Positions 18,800 to 20,335 of a stretch of DNA of 40,282 nucleotides are shown piece after piece. The notes below the pieces were generated by a model. The model was not told the origin of the DNA. It saw nothing but the letters and a program-made list of their open reading frames with translations, and did no database searches. Where the stretch lies: the NCBI GenBank assembly GCA_029227635.1, contig JAQYAH010000063.1, forward strand, positions 1 to 40,282, in the 5' to 3' direction. Source of the stretch: Clostridiales bacterium (GTDB lineage: Bacteria > Bacillota > Clostridia > Lachnospirales > Lachnospiraceae). Numbering within the stretch: the stretch's first letter is position 1; every line of letters starts with the position of its first letter. The translations under genes and the position numbers were made by a program.

Positions 18800-20335
18800 T
18801 TGGAGACATTAGTAGCACAGATTAAACCTGAGGAGGTCAAGCTGCCTCTGGGGCTGGCTCTTTTTGCAAAAGCCGGGGAGATATTGCGAAACGGCGGACT
18901 TGTGGCTTTTCCCACGGAGACGGTGTATGGTCTCGGAGGAGACGCCTTTGATCCGGATGCGGCAGGGAAGATCTATGCCGCCAAGGGAAGGCCGTCAGAC
19001 AATCCCCTGATCGTTCACATAGCGGATGTGGCGGATCTGAACGAGGTGGCAAGGGAGATACCGGATAAGGCTAAGATGCTTATGGAGGCTTTTTGGCCGG
19101 GACCTCTGACTCTGATCTTTTTCAAAAGACAGGGGATTCCCTGCACAGTCACCGGCGGACTGGACACTGTAGCGGTGCGTTTTCCGGACAATGATATTGC
19201 AAGGGCAATGATCAAAAGCGGAGGTGGCTTCATTGCGGCTCCCAGCGCCAATCGCTCCGGAAGCCCCAGCCCTACTCTGGCAGAGCACGTCCTAAAAGAT
19301 CTTCAGGGAAGGATCGATATGGTCATTGACGGAGGCGCCTCGGTTCTCGGACTGGAATCCACCATTGTAGACATGACTGTGGATCCCCCCATGATACTGA
19401 GACCGGGATTTGTGACGAGAGAAATGCTTGAGAAGGTAATTGGCAGAGTGGATGTGGATGCGAAGATTCTGGATGCCAAATCCCCTGTGCCCCCCAAGGC
19501 TCCCGGAATGAAATACCGACACTACGCTCCAAAAGCAGAGCTTACGGTTTTTGAGGGAGAGCCTATAAGAGCGGCCAAGGAGATGCGCCGCTGTGCCGAT
19601 GAGGCTATTGCCAACAATGAGAAGGTGGGAATCATCACCACCGATGAGTTGGCGGTTCACTTTGAGGGACTTAATTACAGGAGCATAGGAAGCCGGATCG
19701 ATCCGGACACTATTGCCCAGAACCTTTATCGGGTGCTCCGGGAATTTGACGAGACGGACGTGGAGAAGATCTTTTCCGAGTCTTTTGCCCTGGATGGAGT
19801 AGGACAGGCGATCATGAACCGGCTTATGAAGGCGGCGGGACAGAAGGTGGTACACCTTGCCAATGACAATGATCTGAGCAAGGTGGACCGGATAGTTTTT
19901 CTGGACAATTCCGACAGCGACAGGGCGCCTTATGCGGCCTATGTGCTGGAGAATATGACGCTTCCGAGGCTTATATCCATTGAGAGCCGGGGAATGGTGG
20001 CGCCTTTTCCCGAGCCTATATGTCAGGGAATCCAGATGATACTGGAGAAACAGGGACGAAGAGCAATATATCACTCAGCCAGAGAACTTTCCGGTGAGGA
20101 TATCAGAAAGGATACTCTGTTCCTGACTTTTGATTTAAAACTCAAGGTCAAGCTGCTTCGGAAATATGAGGGAATAGACAATGTCTACACTCTTCCGGAG
20201 TTTCTTGAGGAACCGGCATTGGAGATTCCTTCCCCCTACGGACACGGGGAAGAAGGATACGAGGAGTGCTGTGATATAATAGAGAACGCGGTATCAAGGG
20301 TAGCGGCAAAACTCAGTCTTATTATGCTGGACTGA
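18800..20335 (+). CDS. Sua5 threonylcarbamoyl-AMP synthase fused to a degenerate low-MW phosphatase domain
   Basis: A 511-aa fusion. Residues 1-345 are a complete Sua5: YrdC core (GGLVAFPTETVYGLGGDA, KGRPSDNPLIVHI, APSANRSGSPSPT), then linker SPVPPKAPGMKYRHYAPKA and the Sua5 C-terminal domain. It makes threonylcarbamoyl-AMP for tRNA t6A37. Residues about 360-511 have a low-molecular-weight protein phosphatase fold, but the P-loop Cys is Asp369 (LDNSDSDRAP, Arg375 kept), and the general-acid DP element is S478-P479. The domain is probably inactive as a phosphatase. Translation starts at TTG (18800) with METL, matching Sua5 N-termini; no suitable ATG is present. In Bacillus the separate genes ywlC and ywlE lie close together, so the fusion has a plausible origin. 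Confidence 0.88.
   Translation: METLVAQIKPEEVKLPLGLALFAKAGEILRNGGLVAFPTETVYGLGGDAFDPDAAGKIYAAKGRPSDNPLIVHIADVADLNEVAREIPDKAKMLMEAFWPGPLTLIFFKRQGIPCTVTGGLDTVAVRFPDNDIARAMIKSGGGFIAAPSANRSGSPSPTLAEHVLKDLQGRIDMVIDGGASVLGLESTIVDMTVDPPMILRPGFVTREMLEKVIGRVDVDAKILDAKSPVPPKAPGMKYRHYAPKAELTVFEGEPIRAAKEMRRCADEAIANNEKVGIITTDELAVHFEGLNYRSIGSRIDPDTIAQNLYRVLREFDETDVEKIFSESFALDGVGQAIMNRLMKAAGQKVVHLANDNDLSKVDRIVFLDNSDSDRAPYAAYVLENMTLPRLISIESRGMVAPFPEPICQGIQMILEKQGRRAIYHSARELSGEDIRKDTLFLTFDLKLKVKLLRKYEGIDNVYTLPEFLEEPALEIPSPYGHGEEGYEECCDIIENAVSRVAAKLSLIMLD

Follow-up and report, generated by a model that had tools for sequence, protein, structure and literature searches.

A Sua5 protein with a phosphatase-like C terminus

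The window, meaning the whole 40,282-nucleotide stretch of Lachnospiraceae DNA that was analysed, encodes a 511-aa protein whose features are collected in Table 1. The two domains by which Sua5 proteins are recognized, TsaC-like and SUA5, are both complete in this protein, and the same ORF accounts for all Sua5_C matches in the window's genome. The N-terminal part of the full-length model corresponded to Sua5 6f87 (TMt 0.95, Foldseek), and the stretches KGRPSDNP and SAN.SG, which we take to be motifs of threonylcarbamoyl-AMP (TC-AMP) synthases, were visible by eye in the translation. As judged from sequence and model, the ORF product is Sua5, a putative TC-AMP synthase.

A GH18 gene lies 5' of the ORF, and a dCMP-deaminase-like gene, a Methyltransf_4 gene and a thioredoxin gene lie 3' of it. 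TsaD is also encoded in the genome, the assembly of which is small (1.75 Mb, 86.7% complete). An antisense open frame of 260 codons (window 19292-20074, minus strand) runs over the SUA5/phosphatase region and is most likely a shadow frame.

Table 1. Features of the 511-aa ORF, with positions in the window
Feature	Position	Strand	Evidence
511-aa Sua5 (putative threonylcarbamoyl-AMP synthase) ending in an LMW-phosphatase-like domain	18800..20335	+	TTG start, Pfam, AlphaFold2, Foldseek
TsaC/YrdC-like catalytic domain, residues 27-203	18878..19408	+	Pfam PF01300 Sua5_yciO_yrdC, 201.6 bits
SUA5 domain, residues 205-347	19412..19840	+	Pfam PF03481 Sua5_C, 131.1 bits
LMW phosphatase fold of the YwlE type with a degenerate catalytic site, residues ~364-505	19889..20314	+	Pfam, PDB, Foldseek, VIA-align
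Degenerate P-loop Asp369-x5-Arg375, replacing Cys-x5-Arg	19904..19924	+	Alignment
Family signature SRGMVAPFPEP, residues 396-406 (FPEP 403-406)	19985..20017	+	F.EP in 126/128 family members
Ser478 at the general-acid Asp position	20231..20233	+	Alignment

Fold and active site of the C-terminal domain

A sequence-only reading of this DNA had placed a C-terminal pseudo-phosphatase at 19870-20335, and a domain was recovered within that span by Pfam, Foldseek and VIA-align. Pfam LMWPc (PF01451) matched residues 378-499 at 29.2 bits with the whole protein and 32.7 bits with the domain alone (cut-off 23.2), and the best PDB chain by phmmer was YwlE 4pic (E = 1.3e-9); an NCBIfam search with the domain alone returned no match. 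AlphaFold2 models were obtained for the full-length protein from a 72-row alignment (pLDDT 90.0; pTM 0.69, which fixes no domain interface) and for the domain alone (pLDDT 90.8, pTM 0.86). The C-terminal part of the model aligned with YwlE 4pic at TMt 0.85 and rmsd 2.0 (Foldseek), and VIA-align placed the YwlE entries 4etn, 4kk4 and 4pic at Z 21.4-21.5 and rmsd 1.8-2.0 over 145-148 residues, so that the comparison with YwlE proposed earlier as a check did yield a low-MW phosphatase fold. Chance similarity to phosphatases is ruled out by the Pfam, PDB sequence and fold matches.

The domain thus has the fold of the LMW phosphatases (PF01451) and lacks both their nucleophilic Cys and their DP-loop general-acid Asp. 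The residue numbers given earlier proved exact: Asp369 (GAC) stands at the nucleophile site, Arg375 (AGG) is kept, and Ser478 (TCC) occupies the general-acid site. As a prediction from sequence, a dead phosphatase fused to Sua5 was right. Assignment of the window copy as an arginine phosphatase from its neighbourhood was rejected on its lost catalytic residues. Position +4 of the P-loop, where Thr is presumably the phospho-arginine (pArg) specificity site of YwlE, is Ser373 in the window; Thr was found there in 98/128 of the family members described below and in 86/87 domains from outside the family. A second LMW phosphatase, intact and with the HGNICRS P-loop of the classic PTP type, is encoded in the window's genome (L001, G000:C40:30488-30913).

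Distribution and linkage to Sua5

When the domain was used as query, 183 of the 397 genomes of the window's family, the Lachnospiraceae, matched at E <= 1e-4, with Muricomes intestini among the named relatives. Fetched stretches containing the domain gave a family set of 128 genomes, which leans to window-like copies because mostly better matches were fetched; the domain was absent from the fetched stretch in 21 further Lachnospiraceae genomes. Within the set, 24 domains were fused to Sua5 and 101 had a frame of their own on the Sua5 strand, in 98 cases <=250 bp from Sua5 (median domain gap 40 bp); one was on the opposite strand, and two had no Sua5 in the stretch. From this linkage and fusion it is plausible that the domain regulates t6A synthesis, as had been suggested.

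Among loci picked by Sua5 score alone (L003-L032), the domain was present in 14/30, with Cys in 3 of those 14. The domain is therefore not obligatory for Sua5, and Sua5 without it is common in Lachnospiraceae. The fusions, the tight linkage and the frequent absence of the domain in the same family would also suit a mere folding or solubility aid for Sua5 with no ligand or signalling role, but one particular loop is better conserved than the remainder of the domain and the separate gene persists, and we regard this explanation as unlikely.

Fused homologues with intact phosphatase residues exist inside the family (G015, G339 and G131), and in another family of the class three loci (L173, L174 and L175) carry Sua5 fused to an intact CTGNTCRS phosphatase domain. 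Two further arrangements were noted. One fused copy (L036, genome G007) keeps the Cys and has lost the P-loop Arg (CSDNTCA), in a McsB-positive genome. In Clostridiales bacterium VE202-21 (L061 / L250), Sua5 and the domain lie in separate frames and the P-loop is unreadable, possibly through a frameshift in a draft assembly.

Loss of catalytic residues and a conserved loop

Across the 128 family domains, the nucleophile site was occupied by Ser (49), Cys (40), Asp (19), Ala (9), Gly (6), Glu (2) or Thr (2), with one gap, and the general-acid Asp was present in 65/128. The P-loop Arg was kept in 103/128. Cys, Arg and Asp occurred together in 27/128 domains in Lachnospiraceae versus 87/87 elsewhere in the class, the latter set being 87 fetched loci (27 + 60) from 224 matching among 291 genomes of the rest of the class.

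Family copies share the signature (S)RG..VLFxEP, and its F.EP core was seen in 126/128 family members versus 0/87 outside the family; LFPEP conservation in L196-L275 was built in by the search pattern and was left out of the counts. In the Cys-less copies of the family (n = 87), F403, P406, A379 and G481 were invariant, and E405 (85), G398 (85), Asn at 408 (83) and Lys at 410 (82) nearly so. The top conserved positions of these copies are not catalytic. Since the domain is strongly conserved even though its catalytic cysteine is usually lost, the pattern points to a second, non-enzymatic job.

It is also conceivable that the domain is still an enzyme or a phospho-switch, in which the P-loop Ser or Asp serves as the attacking residue and is converted to a stable phospho-Ser or acyl-phosphate. 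The title of PDB entry 4kk4 describes YwlE C7S with a phosphorylated active-site serine, the replacements are mostly Ser or Asp, and the P-loop Arg is kept in 72/87 Cys-less copies. Such chemistry is beyond the Ala and Gly forms (15/128), however, the general-acid Asp is gone in 54/87 Cys-less copies and the arginine kinase is mostly absent, which together make this reading quite improbable.

Phylogeny and selection

In a 150-row Sua5 tree, in which 54/147 inner branches are weak and left open, Cys is gained or lost at least 17 times, while the nucleophile letter switches 32 times and fusion status 10 times. Fusion arose more than once, because L173-L175 form their own supported group in the Sua5 tree. 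The Sua5-only tree sets the window apart from the main fused clade, at poor support, and a 57-row Sua5-plus-domain tree places it within that clade (15 rows, 95*), on an end branch flagged as long (1.67 versus a median of 0.57).

Seven close fused-protein pairs had usable dS, and their median dN/dS was 0.055 for the domain (range 0.023-0.160) and 0.049 for Sua5; L254/L257 (0.058) is of the Cys type and the other six are of the Ser type. Domain dN/dS could be computed in five of eight further pairs, three being saturated: Asp-type pairs gave 0.007 (separate genes) and 0.120, Ser-type pairs 0.046 and 0.056, and a Cys-type pair 0.055. The pair G038/G353 (0.046) looks like the same protein pair as L269/L202 (0.044). 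Values for the Cys-less domain are thus low (0.007-0.16) and mostly like those of Sua5, and the domain is not drifting in the testable pairs, all of which come from species other than the window's.

The suggestion that this copy is merely decayed finds some footing in the intact fused homologues but fails for the group, because the Cys-less copies show strong purifying selection; a single decayed copy as an account of the whole group is ruled out by the 128-domain survey and the low dN/dS. The window copy could still be a decaying remnant even with the wider group functional. Its long end branch, its departures from the signature consensus at residues 401, 402, 408 (Cys for Asn) and 410 (Gly for Lys) and the small assembly (1.75 Mb at 86.7% completeness) would fit this. 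Its genus comprises a single genome, and the dN/dS pairs come from other species. Against decay, the frame is intact to the last helix, Arg375, G398, F403, E405, P406, G481 and Y487 are kept, and the fold is predicted with confidence (pLDDT 90.8), so we consider decay of the window copy distinctly unlikely.

Co-occurrence with the McsB arginine kinase

PF00217 (ATP-guanido phosphotransferase, McsB-type) was found in 91/397 family genomes. Searches of the window's genome (86.7% complete) with the PF00217 and NF002194 profiles found no McsB-type kinase. Each profile matched 0/14 control genomes, and for this reason absence by PF00217 depends on how sensitive that profile evidently is among family genomes, and NF002194 alone says little. 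The Bacillus subtilis control, a species known to have McsB and CtsR, gave no match for PF00217/NF002194 or CtsR; the sequence used as control may have gaps or masked parts.

McsB was present in 5/87 Cys-less versus 21/40 Cys-bearing genomes (Fisher p 6e-9) and in 17/27 genomes with Cys, Arg and Asp versus 9/100 others (p 2e-8), kinship being ignored in both comparisons. A supported 68-row clade contained McsB in 0/68 and Cys in 6/68, and outside it McsB occurred in 21/34 Cys-bearing versus 5/26 Cys-less genomes (p 0.0015, kinship again ignored). A tree-aware pairwise test of Cys against McsB gave a sign test p of 1, with only 5-6 independent pairs. Loss of Cys goes with absence of McsB, an association that is not secured against shared ancestry.

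These counts bear on the earlier proposal that the domain senses phospho-arginine, which is disfavoured: the kinase was not found in the window's genome, nor in 82/87 Cys-less genomes. As a pArg reader, the dead domain would bind pArg proteins and steer them to or away from Sua5. The nearest relatives are indeed arginine phosphatases, and Thr, Ser or Asn stands at +4 in 114/128, but with McsB in only 5/87 Cys-less genomes and none found in the window's, this role is very improbable. Phosphate was the other ligand proposed earlier, and the domain may sense it; the P-loop Arg persists in 72/87 Cys-less copies.

A model for the Sua5-associated domain

We favour, with moderate confidence, the explanation that this pseudophosphatase descends from YwlE, represents a Lachnospiraceae-wide subfamily encoded immediately 3' of Sua5 or fused to it, and was retained to serve Sua5 as a non-catalytic partner. 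The fold, the missing catalytic residues, the linkage and fusions, the signature, the purifying selection in relatives and the association with McsB absence are observations; the order of events, the non-catalytic function and the partner are what we infer. In this scheme, an ancestral, active arginine phosphatase would already have borne the (S)RG..FxEP loop. Without McsB the phosphatase would have become superfluous as an enzyme, and its nucleophile and general acid would have given way to other residues several times over. Its work as a non-catalytic Sua5 partner would have preserved the fold, the FxEP loop and, in most copies, the P-loop Arg. The domain would most likely act as a docking or allosteric surface linking Sua5 to another protein, for which the TsaD/B/E complex is the obvious candidate, or to an anionic ligand. 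The FxEP loop comes after beta-2, in the part of LMW phosphatases that borders the active-site crevice, so the conserved patch would lie beside the old pocket, a place suited to binding a partner or ligand. Of the open readings, that of a t6A regulator or docking module is the best, and it is stronger for the clade than for the window copy.

A tie between YwlE and t6A existed in another lineage, because the stability of TsaD in B. subtilis is governed by McsB and YwlE via pArg282 (PMC7546277). In Lachnospiraceae this tie may have turned physical and non-catalytic. A bolder version, which we hold to be rather unlikely, is that direct, non-catalytic coupling took the place of t6A control through arginine phosphorylation of the t6A enzymes. 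What was once an arginine phosphatase would then be a subunit or domain of Sua5. Its RG..FxEP loop and dead P-loop would bind a partner, which might be TsaD or some ligand that is phosphorylated or anionic, and would gate the making of TC-AMP or its hand-over; where the P-loop has Ser or Asp, a phosphate could be stably carried there and serve as a switch.

On the favoured reading of a non-catalytic Sua5 partner, this would be a bacterial pseudophosphatase subfamily caught at many stages (intact, Cys lost and fused), with links both to an enzyme that acts in the universal t6A modification of tRNA and to the loss of the corresponding kinase. This reading raises the testable question of what use the YwlE fold is to Sua5 without dephosphorylation, and calls for caution with arginine or tyrosine phosphatase labels on such genes in common gut genera, e.g. 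Mediterraneibacter and Faecalicatena. No bacterial YwlE-type pseudophosphatase was found in print in the open-licence PMC literature.

Comparison with known systems

The closest known system is the arginine phosphatase YwlE, the opponent of McsB (PF01451; 4pic, 4kk3 and 4kk4), with which the domain shares its fold (Z about 21) and detectable sequence similarity (E 1.3e-9), and whose relatives in this class lie next to or fused to sua5. The window domain differs in having neither the nucleophilic Cys nor the general-acid Asp, in its new RG..FxEP loop and in a genome where McsB was not found. Both Sua5 domains are common to Sua5 6f87 and Thermotoga maritima TsaC2 9d3h, to which the window protein adds a C-terminal phosphatase-like domain; the word "phosphatase" is absent from the accessible portions of PMC10321239 and PMC9654439 on the Sua5 enzyme family. 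To judge from the title of 8ide, the modular t6A enzyme TsaN is also a Sua5 enlarged by fusion. In TsaN the fusion is to TsaD and TcdA modules, whereas in the window Sua5 is joined to a phosphatase fold. Eukaryotic pseudophosphatases use a dead phosphatase fold for binding, and they differ from the window domain in fold and in host.
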